NCBI GenBank assembly: GCA_001798185.1
Contig: MGRM01000029.1
Location: 1 to 44,767, forward strand
Direction of reading: 5' to 3'
Origin: Deltaproteobacteria bacterium RIFCSPHIGHO2_02_FULL_44_16
GTDB taxonomy: Bacteria > UBA10199 > 2-02-FULL-44-16
Length of the DNA: 44,767 nucleotides
Part shown: positions 17,926-42,968 of the stretch, piece by piece
Layout of the letters: each line of letters starts with the position of its first letter
How positions within the stretch are numbered: position 1 is the first letter of the stretch
The notes under the pieces: generated by a model
What the model saw: the letters and a program-made list of their open reading frames with translations, nothing else
What the model was told of the DNA's origin: nothing
Databases searched by the model: none
Position numbers and translations under genes: made by a program

Positions 17926-17988
17926 GTCATCCCTGCGAAAGCAGGGATCTCATGGAATCACTGGGATTCCCGCTTTCACGGGAATGAC
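17926..17988. repeat. GTCATTCCC-type intergenic palindromic repeat, copy 1
   Basis: The inverted arms GTCATCCCTGC...GCAGGGATC and GGATTCCCGC...CGGGAATGAC bound the element. Each arm can also form its own small hairpin (CCCTGC/GCAGGG; TCCCG/CGGGA). Similar repeats lie at 32330-32397 and 39864-39944. This repeat type is widespread in environmental bacterial genomes. Confidence 0.8.
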
Positions 17989-17997
17989 ATCACTTTG

Positions 17998-21187: not shown

Positions 21188-22336
21188 ATGCGATTTCAAC
21201 TCCTTAAAACTGTTATGTTTTCCGCTCTTTTGGCTAGCGGGTTGACCTTTTTCTCCTCTGACGTTTTTCCCTCCACCCCTCCTTCAATTCGAGTCCAAGT
21301 GTTGGATCAGATGACAGAGATCATCCTGCAAAGCTCAAGTCCTGGTTTTGTGGTCACAGATGACAAGGAAAAAACACGCACGTTCAAAAAAACTCAACTT
21401 CACCTTATTGCAGAGGGACAAAATCGTTTTCGGCTTGATTCGAAACTCCTGACATCAGGATTTCTGAAGATCACCCATCCCCTCTCCACCTTTACGATTG
21501 CACATCGCACCTTTCATGGAACGCTTTTGATTGCTTCTGCATCGGAAAAAACATTCATGGTCATCAATGAACTTCCTTTGGAGTCTTATCTCGTCGGCAT
21601 TATCAATAGTGAAATCTCTTCGAGCTGGCCTTTAGAATCGATCAAAGCGCAAGCGGTTGCAGCACGAACATACGCATCTGCAACGCTCGATCGGACCAAA
21701 CAGAGTTCTCGCCTTTTTGATATTCGAGGGACGGTGGATGATCAAGTCTATCACGGCACACATCTCGATGATGCACGATCTGCAAACGCCGTGAAAGCAA
21801 CGGCAGGAGAAGTTCTCGTGAAAGCAAAAAAACCTCTCATGGCGTATTATCACAGTTGCTGCGGTGGACAAACTGAGCACGCACATAATGCTTGGGAACA
21901 CAGTCATGGACCTCCAACGGTCATTGATCATTTTTGTGAAAAAAGTCCGAAGCTCACTTGGGAATATCGAATTCCATTACATGCTTTTGAACAACTCCTT
22001 CGAAAAAATGGACATGCGATGAAAGGGCTCCTCGATATTTCGACAACACAACTCCCAGATTCACCGCGAAATAGTTTGGTTTTAATAACGGATCAAGATC
22101 GGCTTCACACAATTTCAGCAACTGAGATTCGAAAAATATTTGGGTATCAAAACATTCGAAGCACATGGTTCAATGTTGGCATAGAAAACGGCGCAGCCGT
22201 TTTTGCAGGACGCGGGTATGGACACGGCGTCGGCATGTGCCAGTGGGGAGCGAAGGGGATGGCTGAAGCAGGACATAACTATCGTGATATTTTGAAATTT
22301 TATTATTCTGATGCTGAATTGATGAAAACTTATTAA
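21188..22336 (+). CDS. SpoIID/LytB-domain lytic transglycosylase
   Basis: The product, about 382 residues, has a signal peptide (MRFQLLKTVMFSALLASGL) and a SpoIID domain. Markers are NELPLESYLVGIINSEISSSW with the catalytic Glu expected in this segment, AQAVAARTYASA, YHSCCGGQTEHA, and the C-terminal GRGYGHGVGMCQWGAKGMA. SpoIID cleaves denuded peptidoglycan glycans. In non-spore-formers such homologues act in cell-wall turnover or division. The open frame extends back to 21098, but ATG 21188 fits the signal peptide. Its stop lies inside the left arm of the palindromic element 22335-22472. Confidence 0.88.
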   Translation: MRFQLLKTVMFSALLASGLTFFSSDVFPSTPPSIRVQVLDQMTEIILQSSSPGFVVTDDKEKTRTFKKTQLHLIAEGQNRFRLDSKLLTSGFLKITHPLSTFTIAHRTFHGTLLIASASEKTFMVINELPLESYLVGIINSEISSSWPLESIKAQAVAARTYASATLDRTKQSSRLFDIRGTVDDQVYHGTHLDDARSANAVKATAGEVLVKAKKPLMAYYHSCCGGQTEHAHNAWEHSHGPPTVIDHFCEKSPKLTWEYRIPLHAFEQLLRKNGHAMKGLLDISTTQLPDSPRNSLVLITDQDRLHTISATEIRKIFGYQNIRSTWFNVGIENGAAVFAGRGYGHGVGMCQWGAKGMAEAGHNYRDILKFYYSDAELMKTY

Positions 22337-22472
22337 AAACCCATTTCAAAATGTTACTTATTTGTTACGGGTCCTGCCACCTGCGGTGTTCCGGCCCTCC
22401 GCTAAAGACGGAGACCTCCCGGAACACGCTCCGGTGTCACCCGAATCTTGATCTATTTTGAAATGGGTTTTT
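22335..22472. repeat. palindromic element A, copy 1, within an 18-bp inverted repeat before queA
   Basis: Outer arms AAAAACCCATTTCAAAAT (22335-22352) and its exact reverse complement (22455-22472) enclose a 76-bp core from CGGGT (22368) to ACCCG (22443). Core stems include CACC/GGTG, GTGTTCCGG/CCGGAACAC and CTCCG/CGGAG. A related core lies inside a gene at 41144-41273 between entirely different arms. The right outer arm ends exactly before the queA ATG, so transcripts would fold the start into a long stem. The arm and T-run also look terminator-like for the SpoIID gene. Confidence 0.8.
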
Positions 22473-23507
22473 ATGAAATTGTCTGACTTCAATTATACAT
22501 ATCCAAAAGAGCTGATCGCGCAGCGTCCGCTGAAAGAACGCGATGCCAGTCGCATGATGGTCATTGATCGCACAAAAAAAAACTGGGAACATTCAACGAT
22601 AAAAAAACTTCCTGATTTTCTTCAGCCACAAGAGCTTCTTGTAATCAACAACTCCAAAGTTCTCCCCTCTCGTCTCTTTGGAGAAATTCGAAAGAAGAAA
22701 ATGGAAGTATTACTTGTGGAACAGGATTGTAGGGGCGCACAAGAAATTTGGCGATGTCTCACTAAAAAAGCCAAACGTATTCGTCCTGGAGAGAAAATAT
22801 TTTTTGGGATGACCGCTCACGCAACGGTCATCGGCCATGAAGATATCTATTTGCTCCTCGCATTTGAACCAGGCCATCGGCTTCGCGCAATAGAACGACG
22901 AGGAGTTCCTCCTCTTCCTCCTTATATTGAACGTGAAGGGATTGAATCTTATTCCGATGAGGATCGAGAACGGTATCAAACGATCTACGCCAAAGAAGAG
23001 GGCTCAGCCGCAGTTCCTACCGCAGGTTTACATTTTTCAGATACTCTTTTGGAGAGCTTGCACACAAAAGGAATAGAGATCGTTCCTGTCACCTTGCATG
23101 TTGGAATTGATACTTTCCGGCCTGTGCAGACGGAACAGATCGAAGAACATCGCATGCATGGCGAGGAAGTTTTTATCTCTGAAGACGCAGCGCAAAAAAT
23201 AAACACGGCAAAACAGATGAACCGTCGCATCATCGCATGTGGAACCACAACGGTACGAGCGTTGGAATCCGCTTGGGATGGAGAAAAAATCGTCGCGGGA
23301 TCAAAGCGTACTGAGCTTTTTATCACACCTGGTTTTCAATTTCAGGTCATTGATGGACTGATCACCAATTTCCATCAACCCAAATCGACACTTCTGATGA
23401 TGGTTTCTGCTTTTGTGGAACGTGAATTCTTACTCGAATGTTATGAAGAAGCCATCAAGGAACGATATCGCTTATTTTCTTACGGCGATTGTATGCTGAT
23501 TCTATGA
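22473..23507 (+). CDS. queA: S-adenosylmethionine:tRNA ribosyltransferase-isomerase QueA
   Basis: QueA transfers and isomerises the ribosyl group of SAM onto preQ1 in tRNA to give epoxyqueuosine. The 344-residue product has the family start MKLSDFNYTYPKELIAQRPL, then LLVINNSKVLPSRLFG, PLPPYIER, EGSAAVPTAGLHFS and THVGIDTFRPV-like blocks (LHVGIDTFRPVQTE), and ITNFHQPKSTLLMMVSAF near the end. I chose ATG 22473 because it gives the standard N-terminus. A TTG at 22458 in the same frame lies inside the repeat arm. The usual neighbour tgt is displaced 2.4 kb by an ABC transporter flanked by hairpins. Confidence 0.95.
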   Translation: MKLSDFNYTYPKELIAQRPLKERDASRMMVIDRTKKNWEHSTIKKLPDFLQPQELLVINNSKVLPSRLFGEIRKKKMEVLLVEQDCRGAQEIWRCLTKKAKRIRPGEKIFFGMTAHATVIGHEDIYLLLAFEPGHRLRAIERRGVPPLPPYIEREGIESYSDEDRERYQTIYAKEEGSAAVPTAGLHFSDTLLESLHTKGIEIVPVTLHVGIDTFRPVQTEQIEEHRMHGEEVFISEDAAQKINTAKQMNRRIIACGTTTVRALESAWDGEKIVAGSKRTELFITPGFQFQVIDGLITNFHQPKSTLLMMVSAFVEREFLLECYEEAIKERYRLFSYGDCMLIL

Positions 23508-23540
23508 TTTACCAATAACTAACTGGCAGTTATTGGTAAA
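23508..23540. repeat. hairpin repeat C, copy 1, between queA and the ABC transporter
   Basis: A perfect 13-base inverted repeat, TTTACCAATAACT and AGTTATTGGTAAA, has a 7-base loop AACTGGC and begins one base after the queA stop. The inner 27 bases recur at 25794-25820 with one difference in the loop. No T-run follows, so it is not a standard intrinsic terminator. Confidence 0.8.
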
Positions 23541-24290: not shown

Positions 24291-25777
24291 AGATCATTCT
24301 CTTCATATTCTTCTTTCTCTTTGCTCCACATACGATGGCTCAAACTGAGCGCCCTCTTGTCATCGGCTCTTTCATCGATGTCGAAGGTCGCATCTTAGGC
24401 GAGATGTTCGCGCAACTACTCGAAGATCGTGGCGTTGAAGTGAAGCGACAACTTGGACTGGGCGGTCCAACGGTCTGTTTTGAAGCCCTCAAAGCAGGGG
24501 AGATCGATCTCTATCCGGAATATTCAGGAAATATTCAGGCACAGATGAATAGGCCGCATGCACTCCCCTATCGTGCATTACAACAGGTGACGAAAGAAAC
24601 ATTTGGGTTCGAGTTGTTAGACCCACTTGGATTTAACAATACCTATGCTTTTGTTGTGCGCACTGAAACGGCCAAAAAATTTCATTTGAAACGCATCAGC
24701 GATCTCGTCTCGATTCCAGGTCTTCGATATGGTCTCAGTCATGACTTCCTCCGCCGTTTTGACGGTTGGCCAGGTCTTGCGAAACTTTATGGCATCAAAG
24801 CAACGCCCCTTGGCATTGATCATGGCCTCTCTTATCAAGCACTGGCACAAAAAAAAGTTGATCTCATTGATGCCTATTCCACAGATGGAAAACTGAAAAA
24901 ATTTGACCTTGTTTTTCTGGAAGATGATCGTCACTTTTTTCCACTTTACCTTGCTGGCCCTCTCATTCGACCCAATATTGATAAACGTGCGAAAGAAATT
25001 TTAGGTGAACTGACAGGAAAACTTTCAGATGAAAAAATGCAAAGCATTAATGCTCTTGTTGAACTTGATGGAAAAAGTTTTGCGGAAGCTGCCGAACATT
25101 TCTTGCGTGAAGCAGATCTTCTTGAGCAACAAAGAACACTGCTTGTCCCGAGAAAATGGCAGGAACTCCTTCAAAGAACTTTCACCCATATTTGGCTGAG
25201 CGCTGCTGCCCTCTTTCTTGCCATGGTGATTGCGATTCCGCTTGGCATTCTCGTGTATCGATTTCGTTTCCTGGCGCAACCGCTTCTCACCTTCACCAGT
25301 ATTTTGCAGACGATTCCTTCGATCGCACTTCTCGCATTTATGATCCCACTGTTTGGAATTGGGGTGAAGCCCGCCATCATTGCACTTTTTCTCTATGCGC
25401 TTCTTCCGATTGCTCGCAACACCACAACTGCGCTTCTCTCCATTGATCCTGTTTTGAAAAAAGTTTCACTCGGAATGGGACTGAGTTCATGGCAACAACT
25501 TCGTTATATTGAATTTCCCCTTTCGATGCCGCACATCCTCGCAGGGATTCGCACTGCAGCCGTGATGACGATTGGAACGGCGACCCTCGCTGCTTTCATT
25601 GGCGCTGGAGGGCTTGGAGAGCCGATTGTCGCGGGACTGAATTTAAATAATCCCGCAATGGTGATGGAAGGAGCAATTCCATCTGCTTTGCTTGCAATCC
25701 TGACTGAATACGGTTTTGAACTTTTAGAACGATGCCTGATTCCCAAACATCTCACCCAAAAAGTGTCGGAGAGATAA
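24287..25777 (+). CDS. fused substrate-binding protein and permease of an osmoprotectant-type ABC transporter
   Basis: The 496-residue product starts with a signal peptide (MKIILFIFFFLFAPHTMAQ). A periplasmic binding domain of the OpuAC type follows (GSFIDVEGRILGEMFAQLLE, GEIDLYPEYSGNIQ). From about residue 300 there is a ProW-like permease with roughly five to six spans (LSAAALFLAMVIAIPLGIL, GIGVKPAIIALFLYALLPI). The coupling loop reads GMGLSSWQQLRYIEFPLSMPHILAGIR. Binding domain first and permease second is the reverse of some better-known fusions. It should import a compatible solute or amino acid derivative with the ATPase upstream. Confidence 0.87.
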   Translation: MKIILFIFFFLFAPHTMAQTERPLVIGSFIDVEGRILGEMFAQLLEDRGVEVKRQLGLGGPTVCFEALKAGEIDLYPEYSGNIQAQMNRPHALPYRALQQVTKETFGFELLDPLGFNNTYAFVVRTETAKKFHLKRISDLVSIPGLRYGLSHDFLRRFDGWPGLAKLYGIKATPLGIDHGLSYQALAQKKVDLIDAYSTDGKLKKFDLVFLEDDRHFFPLYLAGPLIRPNIDKRAKEILGELTGKLSDEKMQSINALVELDGKSFAEAAEHFLREADLLEQQRTLLVPRKWQELLQRTFTHIWLSAAALFLAMVIAIPLGILVYRFRFLAQPLLTFTSILQTIPSIALLAFMIPLFGIGVKPAIIALFLYALLPIARNTTTALLSIDPVLKKVSLGMGLSSWQQLRYIEFPLSMPHILAGIRTAAVMTIGTATLAAFIGAGGLGEPIVAGLNLNNPAMVMEGAIPSALLAILTEYGFELLERCLIPKHLTQKVSER

Positions 25778-25787
25778 ATCTTGCTCT

Positions 25788-27401
<1,614 letters not shown>

Positions 27402-32292: not shown

Positions 32293-32329
32293 AAGTCCGT
32301 TTTAACAAGTGCTCGAGGTGAATTAGTAT

Positions 32330-32397
32330 GTCATCCCTGCGTAGACAGGGATCTAGTATTTTCGATGGTTCTGGATTCCCGCTTTCGCGAGAATGAC
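32330..32397. repeat. GTCATTCCC-type intergenic palindromic repeat, copy 2
   Basis: Arms GTCATCCCTGC and GCGAGAATGAC enclose GGATC...GGATTCCCGC, matching the copy at 17926-17988 closely. It lies in the leader of the PTPS/QueD-like gene. No other signal is seen in 32293-32438. Confidence 0.78.
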
Positions 32398-32438
32398 ATA
32401 CAAAAGTAATTTATGAGATAGCTTCTATAGAGTTCATC

Positions 32439-35589: not shown

Positions 35590-35740
35590 TTAACCAAACT
35601 GGTCCACATTTTCTCTCAGGGTACGGACGCTGCGGTTACGCTCCGCGCGTCCTCTGTTTCCGTCGGCGCGATCTATCAGAAAGCATCGACGCGCCTCAGT
35701 CAAAGGCCCCCTGCGAAAAAATCTTCACCAGTTTGGTTAA
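35590..35740. mobile_element. MITE-like element between the DUF366 gene and queE
   Basis: Perfect 14-base terminal inverted repeats, TTAACCAAACTGGT (35590-35603) and ACCAGTTTGGTTAA (35727-35740), bound a 151-bp element that starts immediately after the DUF366 stop. The arms continue imperfectly inward (ATTTTCTCTCAGGG against CCCTGCGAAAAAAT). The interior holds a strong hairpin, GGACGC-GCGG/CCGC-GCGTCC (35625-35652), and a second one, GGCGCG/CGCGCC (35665-35695). TTAA is at both tips. There is no room for a transposase. Confidence 0.65.
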
Positions 35741-39868: not shown

Positions 39869-39944
39869 CCTGAACCCGAACGTCATTCCCGTAAAAGCTG
39901 GAATCTCATGAAATTCAGGAGATCCCTGCTTCCGCAGGGATGAC
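39864..39944. repeat. GTCATTCCC-type repeat, copy 3, at the start of the transglycosylase gene
   Basis: The full repeat runs from GTCATTCCCG (39882) to GGGATGAC (39944). A partial unit, GTCATCCTGAA, precedes it at 39864. The CAT inside each GTCAT is an ATG on the minus strand, so the repeat supplies both possible start codons for the transglycosylase. Confidence 0.75.
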
Positions 39945-39962
39945 CTGCTAGGCAAACAAAAT

Positions 39963-42900
39963 CTAAAACGATGTTCCGACTTGCAAGAGAAGGACGCCAT
40001 TTTTCGCACTTGTTCCAAGCGTATCATCTGTTAAATTTCCTAAACGATCTCGATTGAGAACGATAAGAGCATATCCCACTCGTCCCACAATGGGGAGTCC
40101 GTACCCAACAATAAAGTCAGCACGTAGTTCACTTCCTACTCCTAAGAAAAAATTATCAAAGAAGGTAGAAAATTTATCACTTCCCCCTTCATGCGCATTA
40201 AAAGCATTGCCATAATCAGCAAAGAAGGCACCATGCAAATTTTTAAGAAAAATGGGAGCGGTTCCAAGACCACGTTGGGGCGACGTCAGAGGAAAACGAT
40301 ATTCACTGGAAAAAAGCATGGCGCGCGTGCGAGAAAAAGAGGCTGTCGGCAAACCACGCAAAGGAAAATAAAAGAAGGAACCTCCACCTGCCATCGAACC
40401 CTCTCCGAGCGCGCCCCCGAGGCTAAAGGTTCCTTGAATCAATCGATCACCACGCGTCATGCCACCTGCGCCACGAAACGCAAGCACATGTCGGCGACCT
40501 AAATGAAGATATTCACGCCAATCGCCCACAAAAATAGTTTGTTCATTTCCACTGGCAGATCCAAGAGCTTTATCCGTTATCGACGTAAAGAAACGAACAG
40601 ATCTTCCCCCCTGTAAGCTTATGGAAGCGGGATATTCTTCTGCATCGCCATAGGCATAGACAAAACGAAATCCAGAAAAAATTCCCAAGTTTAAAAGAGC
40701 GCTTTCAGCCGCAGAAAGAGAGGTCTTCGGAAAACGATCTTCATAAAAAAAGGAGGTGGAAACTGCATGACGTCCAAAAGGAAAACTCAAAAAACCGTAA
40801 CCACTTCGTCTCTCTTCAAAATAGCGAACCGTACGTCGAACGAGATTATTATTTGAATCTTGTGTCAGAAACGTTAAGTTTCCGTAGTTCACAACTCCAT
40901 CGTTGACTCCCATTCCAACCGCCGGACGATAACGATTATAGACATAGGTACCGAAATATCCGAGATGTTGAGCATCTAAGCGATAAGAAACGCCTCCATT
41001 CCAACCATGAAACCGGAGAGCATCAGTGCCGCCCGTAAGAGCCGAAAAGATCGTCGTATCGCCGGTATAGAAAACATTGGGGGCAATAAAACGTGGGAGA
41101 AGAAGCGATTTTCCAAAAGCGTTATAGTCTTTAACGGTGTATCGACCAGTTTCGAAACCCTCCTTGGTAACGGGTCCTGCCGTCTGCGGTGTTCCGGCCC
41201 TCCCACTTATTGCGGGAGACCCTCCCGGAAGCACCTCCGACGTCACCCGATTTATGGAGTTTCGAAACTGGTCAAACGACCGGTTCTTTGTAAATCGTAT
41301 TTTTTTCAACTGATACCCTTTTGCCGTGTAGGCTTGGACAATAATTTCGCCATTGGGTTGAAGCGCCGGATGAAACACACCTGTCATCACATTGCTTATT
41401 TGTTCCACACGACCAGTCGCAACATTGAGACGATACAGATTAAAAATTCCTGTTTCGTCTGAAACATAAGAGAGATATTTTCCATCCGCAGACCAAATGG
41501 CATCTTCTTCGCGACCTTCGCGTTTCACCAAGCGTTTCAGTTGCTTTCCTTGTGCTGAAAAAAGAAAAAGCTTCCACAGTTCATTTTTCTGATGAAGGGT
41601 CACCACAAAAGTCTTTCCATTGGGAGACCATGCAGGATGAGAAAATCTGGTTTCAGAAAGATCCACCAGCGTTTTTATTTCTTTTTTATCGCGTTGATAT
41701 ATTTTCAACACATCTTTCTCTGCAGAGCCTGAGACATATAAAACCTGATTTCCGTCAGGATGAAGAGCGAGATCATGAGCGCGTTCGCCTTGAGTTAATC
41801 GAACCACTTTCTTTGTTGTGAGATTATATTCCCACAGATCATAGTACGAAGAATAACGTTTATGACTCGCCAACGCGGAAAAGATAAATCCCGATCCATC
41901 GTTAAGCCATGACAGGGCGACAGCTCCCTGCTTTTTTCGAAGCGCTTCGGTTTTTCCGGTTTCAAGATCAAGCAGATGAAGTTGAGATGCATGTTCAGGA
42001 GAAAAAACAGCATACACGAGTTTTTTTCCATCGGGGGAGAGTCGGGGAATTTTATATTGTTGATGACGCTTTGGAGTCAGAACATTTGAAAGCTCGGTTA
42101 ATTCTCCACGATTTTCTTTTTCTTGCGCATATTTTTGTTCAAGTGTTGCATGCCATTCTTTCCACAATTTGAGAAAAGATTTTCCATACACTCTTTTCGC
42201 TTGATGATTAACCATGGTCAGCAAAAGCGAATGCTGCGTGTAGTGATTGAACTGAAGAAATTTTGCTTCACCATAGGTATGAATAAGATATTGAATAAAC
42301 TTCGATCCGAAAAGATACGCCACATGATAACTGGGCCATTCCCAGCTCAGACCATCGGCTTGATTGATACCAGGGAAACGTCCTTCAACAACAGAGGTCC
42401 GAATAATCATTTCCGAAAGTGACGCGTATGTTCGTCCAAATCCGCTCTTGGAACTTTCTTCATAGGTTGCAAAACCCTCTTTCACCCATACGGGAGTAAT
42501 ACCAGCAGGAGCCACGACCTTGCCGAAGAGAAGTCGAAAGGGTTTCCAAATACCGCGGGCGGGATCGAGATGAAGAATATGCGTGTATTCATGTGTGATC
42601 AAAACACGAAGCCAATCATCATAATATGACAGACTCGATTCTGATCGTGGCGCTACCACATTGAGCGTGATCCAATTATACGGAAGAACCGTTGCAAAAC
42701 CGTTTGCTTCATCGGTGTTATCCAGCAAAACAACTTCTGTTTTCCCCCATGGCTTCCACCGAAGCTCGGGTGAAAACTTGGCATGCACCTCTTCAAAAAG
42801 GCCTGCGGCCTTTTCTGCGGTGACTTGCAGATGTAAGGGATAATTTATGTTGAAGTGTTCTGTGGTAATCGTCTTCCACTGAAGTTTCGGATCATAGCGA

Positions 42901-42968
42901 CCAGCAAAGGAAGGAAATGAAAAAAGGAGAAAAAATAAACTAAGTGTGAAGAGACGAATAAAATACAT
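39963..42968 (-). CDS. HExxH metallopeptidase-like, TolB-like propeller and outer-membrane beta-barrel fusion
   Basis: The 1001-residue product has a signal peptide (MYFIRLFTLSLFFLLFSFPSFA). A gluzincin-like domain follows with HEYTH at 126-130 and a downstream Glu at 164 (PVWVKEGFATYEES). A propeller of PD40/TolB repeats occupies roughly residues 300-560 (IPRLSPDGKKLVYAVF; DAIWSADGKYLSYVS). The C-terminal part looks like a BamA-like barrel ending in Phe (VLLLQVGTSF). It is probably an outer-membrane surface or periplasmic peptidase-like protein; substrate unknown. Residues 566-609 are encoded by palindromic element A, inserted in the linker between propeller and barrel. Confidence 0.8.
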   Translation of the reverse strand: MYFIRLFTLSLFFLLFSFPSFAGRYDPKLQWKTITTEHFNINYPLHLQVTAEKAAGLFEEVHAKFSPELRWKPWGKTEVVLLDNTDEANGFATVLPYNWITLNVVAPRSESSLSYYDDWLRVLITHEYTHILHLDPARGIWKPFRLLFGKVVAPAGITPVWVKEGFATYEESSKSGFGRTYASLSEMIIRTSVVEGRFPGINQADGLSWEWPSYHVAYLFGSKFIQYLIHTYGEAKFLQFNHYTQHSLLLTMVNHQAKRVYGKSFLKLWKEWHATLEQKYAQEKENRGELTELSNVLTPKRHQQYKIPRLSPDGKKLVYAVFSPEHASQLHLLDLETGKTEALRKKQGAVALSWLNDGSGFIFSALASHKRYSSYYDLWEYNLTTKKVVRLTQGERAHDLALHPDGNQVLYVSGSAEKDVLKIYQRDKKEIKTLVDLSETRFSHPAWSPNGKTFVVTLHQKNELWKLFLFSAQGKQLKRLVKREGREEDAIWSADGKYLSYVSDETGIFNLYRLNVATGRVEQISNVMTGVFHPALQPNGEIIVQAYTAKGYQLKKIRFTKNRSFDQFRNSINRVTSEVLPGGSPAISGRAGTPQTAGPVTKEGFETGRYTVKDYNAFGKSLLLPRFIAPNVFYTGDTTIFSALTGGTDALRFHGWNGGVSYRLDAQHLGYFGTYVYNRYRPAVGMGVNDGVVNYGNLTFLTQDSNNNLVRRTVRYFEERRSGYGFLSFPFGRHAVSTSFFYEDRFPKTSLSAAESALLNLGIFSGFRFVYAYGDAEEYPASISLQGGRSVRFFTSITDKALGSASGNEQTIFVGDWREYLHLGRRHVLAFRGAGGMTRGDRLIQGTFSLGGALGEGSMAGGGSFFYFPLRGLPTASFSRTRAMLFSSEYRFPLTSPQRGLGTAPIFLKNLHGAFFADYGNAFNAHEGGSDKFSTFFDNFFLGVGSELRADFIVGYGLPIVGRVGYALIVLNRDRLGNLTDDTLGTSAKNGVLLLQVGTSF
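41144..41273. repeat. palindromic element A, copy 2, in frame inside the fusion gene
   Basis: Outer arms GACCAGTTTCGAAAC (41144-41158) and its exact complement (41259-41273) enclose a 79-bp core from CGGGT (41171) to ACCCG (41249). Versus the copy before queA, CACC/GGTG is replaced by CGTC/GACG and CTCCG/CGGAG by CTCCC/GGGAG, preserving pairing. On the minus strand it encodes NRVTSEVLPGGSPAISGRAG and continues TPQTAGPVT without a stop. Confidence 0.85.

Follow-up and report, generated by a model that had tools for sequence, protein, structure and literature searches.

The window analysed here is the 44,767-nt contig MGRM01000029.1 of Deltaproteobacteria bacterium RIFCSPHIGHO2_02_FULL_44_16. 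It carries two copies of a hairpin element, one nested in a protein gene of the opposite strand and one intergenic, with the following features:

39963..42968, minus strand: host gene, 1001-aa protein (HExxH/propeller/barrel according to a first-pass annotation), with an insert absent from homologues
41144..41273, plus strand: coding copy including both mirrored arms, nested in the gene of the opposite strand
41144..41158, plus strand: left arm GACCAGTTTCGAAAC, of which the GACCAG part is locus-specific and the TTTCGAAAC part is like other copies
41170..41249, plus strand: core hairpin (80 bp), from ACGGGTCCTGCC to GTCACCCG
41172..41181, plus strand: fixed 5' end motif GGGTCCTGCC
41242..41249, plus strand: fixed 3' end motif GTCACCCG
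41259..41273, plus strand: right arm GTTTCGAAACTGGTC, mirroring the left arm
22335..22472, plus strand: intergenic copy flanked by queA and by the ORF that ends at 22336; its separate arms lie at 22335-22352 and 22455-22472
22367..22443, plus strand: core hairpin of the intergenic copy

The first-pass annotation, made from the sequence alone, had described a palindromic element at 41144-41273, and we located arms and core exactly there. It had also matched the coding core to the sequence before queA. We observed the same kind of core at 22367-22443, and both proposed sets of compensatory stem changes (CACC/GGTG to CGTC/GACG and CTCCG/CGGAG to CTCCC/GGGAG) were present. The arms differed between the two copies: a 15-bp perfect inverted repeat brackets the coding core, and an unrelated 18-bp inverted repeat brackets the copy beside queA. 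Both copies folded far better than shuffled sequences (z = −5.9 for the coding copy and −7.1 for the intergenic copy; 0 of 200 shuffles as good for each). The host ORF (39963-42968, minus strand) runs uninterrupted across the element, in agreement with the claim that the gene stays open. Homologues of the host protein from the same family, order and class were without the residues, which bears out the earlier reading of the segment as an insert.

Other palindromes also occur in the window. Three head-to-head pairs of short palindromes, GTCATCCCTGCGAAAGCAGGGATCT / AGATTCCCGCTTTCACGGGAATGACAT (17926-17990, 32324-32399 and 39882-39950), look like CGTC-tagged REP dimers. Near-identical palindromes (TTACCAATAACTAACTGNCAGTTATTGGTAA) lie at 23507-23539 and 25774-25848; the latter has longer outer arms (TCAACTTACCAATA / TATTGGTAAGTTGA), possibly further locus-specific arms. 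An intergenic GC-rich hairpin region at 35590-35740, with arms TTAACCAAACTGGT / ACCAGTTTGGTTAA, has an element-like layout of long outer arms and GC-rich core and is without the end motifs.

We observed dispersed near-identical copies of the element throughout this 2-Mb genome (G000). A strict pattern, ACGGGTCCTGCC..CACCCG, recovered 28 copies, compared to none for a reversed-pattern control, and a looser pattern recovered 38. A covariance model trained on the 28 copies gave 67 matches at the cut-off of E ≤ 0.01, of which 61 had E < 1e-8. This kind of search had been suggested by the first-pass annotation. Many further copies with covarying stems exist in this genome and in others. The element is a long imperfect hairpin of ~110-111 bp with a core of 77-85 bp in this genome. 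Its consensus core is CGGGTCCTGC[C..stem..G]TCACCCG, in which the ends alone are invariant; the base preceding GTC varies among copies. Many copies sit between operon genes, and both orientations relative to genes occur. Autonomous, cargo-carrying copies were sought via exact left ends, and all were ordinary copies: each of the 42 exact left ends fell within a covariance-model match, so that no gene-bearing copy was seen. Composite transposons formed by direct pairs ~3.2 kb apart were rejected. Because only ordinary chromosomal genes lie between the members of such pairs, the spacing is a coincidence.

Of the 28 copies, eight fall within ORFs, namely mutL, a methyltransferase-like gene, livF, a lipoprotein leader, metH, pyrD, yggS and the host gene of the window; a further in-frame case is miaA. 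Gene names were taken from recognisable sequence, and comparison with homologues or solved structures confirmed metH, miaA and yggS. By alignment, the segment is an insert, absent from homologues in other genera for metH, livF, yggS and the window gene, and also for miaA. These alignments show in-frame copies in conserved genes whose homologues have none. The net insert was 37 aa, or 111 nt, in metH (54 residues between conserved flanks compared to a modal 17) and in yggS (57 residues, where the nearest homologues have 20), and 36 aa, or 108 nt, in miaA (42 residues compared to 6 in 2qgn, the closest solved MiaA). A length of 108-111 nt is that of the stretch from CRAAAC to GTTTY, between the TTT and the GAAA of the arms. 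Since the net inserts equal this stretch, both mirrored arms in metH, yggS and miaA lie on sequence of native length. pyrD was exceptional; ~18-20 aa are missing from it, and host length is thus not always conserved.

The nine coding copies use at least five readings (frames and orientations) of the core, and there is therefore no single conserved peptide. Selection for open frames in the core was also rejected, as the mean number of open frames was 3.68 compared to 3.63 in shuffles. The openness of the core is due to its high GC content and composition rather than to selection for a peptide.

The outer arms are locus-specific in nearly all copies, a point absent from the first-pass annotation. 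The mirrored run in the flanks of a copy averaged 8.1 nt with its own partner and 1.37 nt with swapped partners (0 of 2000 permutations). Copies of this genome share ~9 bp, GTTTYGAAA, outside which the repeats are specific to the locus. The arms can be long, as in the perfect 29-bp case of locus L042 in a second genome, G026; 4 of the 28 copies showed little ungapped arm pairing, and L313 in G026 showed none past its conserved terminal repeat. Visual inspection of individual loci revealed no consistent direct duplication of the target.

The protein genes gave information on which arm is native. For metH, miaA and the lipoprotein leader, the flank on the left of the element suits the protein, unlike the flank on its right. 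The two outer arms of yggS both appear native and encode family-compatible residues. Length was equal in three genes, with the identity of the native arm judged from protein homologues. A native left flank with a misfitting right flank of equal length is what would be expected if the right flank had been rewritten as the complement of the left. From these few cases (three genes) we infer a polarity in which the left arm would be native and the right arm copied.

The same ends were found well beyond this genome. Among 60 genomes comprising this one and its relatives, 9 carry the ends, and the interiors are wholly different outside its own family. When public genomes were scanned and whole genomes recounted, 2-38 copies per genome were found among the matches listed; G000, G060, G063, G078-G080 and G083 each hold at least ten. 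Carriers among these matches include Saccharibacteria, Uhrbacteria, Gottesmanbacteria, Roizmanbacteria, Kerfeldbacteria, Blackburnbacteria and other Patescibacteria, Omnitrophota, MAGs labelled Deltaproteobacteria or Gammaproteobacteria, and others. At least 31 genomes have two or more copies. The element sequences of G017 and G040 were identical to those of Deltaproteobacteria bacterium RIFCSPHIGHO2_01_FULL_43_49 (L091) and NC_groundwater_1293 (L068), records of the same class as the genome of the window. Carriage by phage was rejected: 2.9 million viral contigs gave eighteen matches, and these are probably mostly due to chance.

Covariation was assessed with 32 elements from 31 genomes, the kinship of some genomes being ignored. 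Inner pairs 2-7 and outer pairs 2-5 covaried (0-1 of 2000 shuffles), with at least three pair types at each of these positions (six inner and four outer pairs). The element belongs to a superfamily whose ends are fixed across bacterial phyla and whose interior is free to change while it keeps pairing. The interiors in G000, G026, G060 and other genomes often follow a pyrimidine-purine-pyrimidine order (e.g. CCCCC..GGGGG.CCCCC), which could permit two alternative pairings. At the end of one Saccharibacteria locus (L143), a copy lies near AGCCAGGATCAAACTCTCCAT, which resembles the 5' end of a 16S rRNA gene on the opposite strand.

In Saccharibacteria we observed that the same ileS positions are occupied repeatedly across genomes. 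Locus L102 holds two elements within the isoleucyl-tRNA synthetase gene, whose identity was assigned on the homologous L331. Both positions are filled in G060, G170 and G193, and one position is filled in L334, L335 and L342 of the same genus. The two elements share 94% identity in G060 and do not differ at all in G170, and interiors differ between genomes. At the second site, L333 and L342 carry an element nested in an older, decayed one. This occupancy is most simply read as independent insertion at the same positions, and replacement of the interior at old sites is possible. The near-identity of the pair within a genome and its divergence between genomes would also fit ancient insertions inherited by descent, with interiors homogenised in each genome by gene conversion and no repeated insertion. 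We consider this history rather improbable, because the nearest relative (G113, 85% identical) has both positions empty with normal-length sequence, most other aligned genomes are empty too, and the filler bases adjoining the elements vary by species. In yggS, unlike subfamilies occupy approximately the same linker in different families of genomes (G026, L313 391-460; G000, L023).

Several explanations for the origin of these copies were weighed. Chance or assembly artefact can be set aside as already refuted by copy number and covariation: the assemblies are of metagenome type, and the lone matches in two Streptomyces-like, high-GC actinobacteria (G088 and G089, one each) are probably due to chance, but neither accounts for 28 exact copies compared to no reversed-pattern controls or for the 31 genomes with at least two copies. 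The strong covariation with a fixed internal-loop motif, together with the operon-internal intergenic location of many copies, would suit a structured non-coding RNA or cis-regulatory element kept for its RNA function, with the coding copies as accidental duplicates. We regard this as very unlikely, given that no copy reached an Rfam gathering score, that both gene-relative orientations and unrelated host genes are used, and that related genomes differ in the positions occupied. Another candidate is a unit of REP/REPIN type whose hairpin would serve as substrate for a single-strand transposase of the RAYT type (Y1, HUH), from a group with uncharacterised repeats. Y1_Tnp proteins are common in the class (four in this genome), a genome-specific hairpin with a fixed foot is what such an enzyme requires, and REPs are also found within genes (PMC3733652). 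However, the published description has every RAYT gene flanked by a pair of REPs (PMC2817692), whereas the nearest element is at least 1.6 kb from each of the four Y1_Tnp genes of this genome. One genome of 98% completeness (G019) has 6 copies and no Y1_Tnp protein, and most Y1_Tnp-bearing genomes are without the element. With neither adjacency nor co-occurrence among 60 relatives, compared at Pfam-family level only, a RAYT/Y1 transposase was rejected as the partner, and we consider this explanation unlikely overall.

The mirrored arms might also have existed beforehand, the element entering the centre of natural quasi-palindromes by recognising cruciform or hairpin DNA, with no copying at all. 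The arms on native-length sequence in metH, yggS and miaA would then follow directly, as would the two yggS arms that both encode residues suited to the family; the nested copies at L333 and L342 are insertions into existing hairpins. Against this, a 2-Mb genome would contain far too few arms of 11-18 bp, and one arm misfits the protein family in miaA and metH. Pre-existing palindromes were rejected as targets when the TTTGAAA-like centres tested, within 154 kb of the genome, yielded no unoccupied one of comparable quality. We view pre-existing arms as an improbable explanation.

We consider it probable that the element is a mobile imperfect hairpin of ~111 bp and that its arms become perfect through fold-back template switching. 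The hairpin would move by inserting itself, using sites like TTT^GAAA in this lineage. During or after insertion, the nascent strand would fold back on the hairpin and copy one flank into the other. Such copying would yield locus-specific mirrored arms with host length unchanged, as in quasipalindrome template switching. That process is established in E. coli and yeast; a stalled nascent strand templates on itself and then returns, leaving the length unchanged (PMC7202029, PMC8604942). Persistence in genes may be explained by the few stop codons of the GC-rich core and by survivors lying in tolerant linkers. No mobilising enzyme was found by Y1_Tnp adjacency and co-occurrence or among the genes between copy pairs.

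A bolder version of this reading can be put forward only tentatively. The superfamily might be phylum-spanning mobile DNA that travels in folded hairpin form, in which insertion itself fold-back-copies the target flank, so that a mirrored arm replaces the direct duplication. A conserved enzyme would recognise CGGGTCCTGC/TCACCCG, and the element would repeatedly add ~37-residue segments to essential proteins.

These data are relevant to the origin of new protein segments. In-frame palindromic inserts have so far been discussed mainly for Rickettsia; here they occur in several candidate phyla and in genes such as ileS, metH and miaA. The recurrent ileS positions allow species comparison to test directly whether mobile hairpins supply new protein segments. 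The mirrored arms would give many natural examples in which bacterial fold-back template switching can be studied, and the common ends point to a mobilising enzyme that may be findable via co-occurrence.

We compared the element to known systems. The first-pass annotation knew of no description in this kind of organism, and our searches by topic and end sequence likewise found none in the open literature (subscription papers and bioRxiv being outside the coverage); Rfam gave no match at or above the gathering score. The annotation's comparison with the palindromic elements of Rickettsia holds as an analogy. Those are ~100-150 bp, lie in frame in unrelated genes and add a few dozen residues (PMC10969869). 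The present element appears to act like them, the likeness being in the mode of insertion into unrelated protein genes. By description, it is set apart by the lack of a single frame or conserved peptide, by its genome-specific interior, by ends shared across phyla and by its locus-specific mirrored arms. REPs and REPINs are also palindromic repeats that differ from genome to genome, have a fixed end motif and are sometimes intragenic, and REPs at times occupy the same site in related species (PMC3733652). However, REPs measure 20-40 bp and carry an unpaired tag, GTAG or CGTC, whereas the core here is ~60-85 bp with CGGGTCCTGC/TCACCCG, and RAYT genes neither flank nor track the element. Like MITEs, the element is short, non-autonomous and multicopy with terminal inverted repeats, but beyond the ~9 bp common to copies of this genome its outer repeats are locus-specific, and consistent direct target duplications were not seen by eye in the loci inspected. 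Integron attC sites fold from single-stranded DNA into hairpins of comparable size, with constant ends and interiors that vary and covary; unlike them, the element has no GTTRRRY/RYYYAAC core sites at its ends and no cassette arrays in the loci inspected. Quasipalindrome template switching offers a likeness for the arms, in that one arm is rewritten as the complement of the other and length is kept (PMC7202029, PMC8604942). It is known as a mutation process of resident sequences, whereas in the present case it would operate at many loci, each time around a mobile hairpin.
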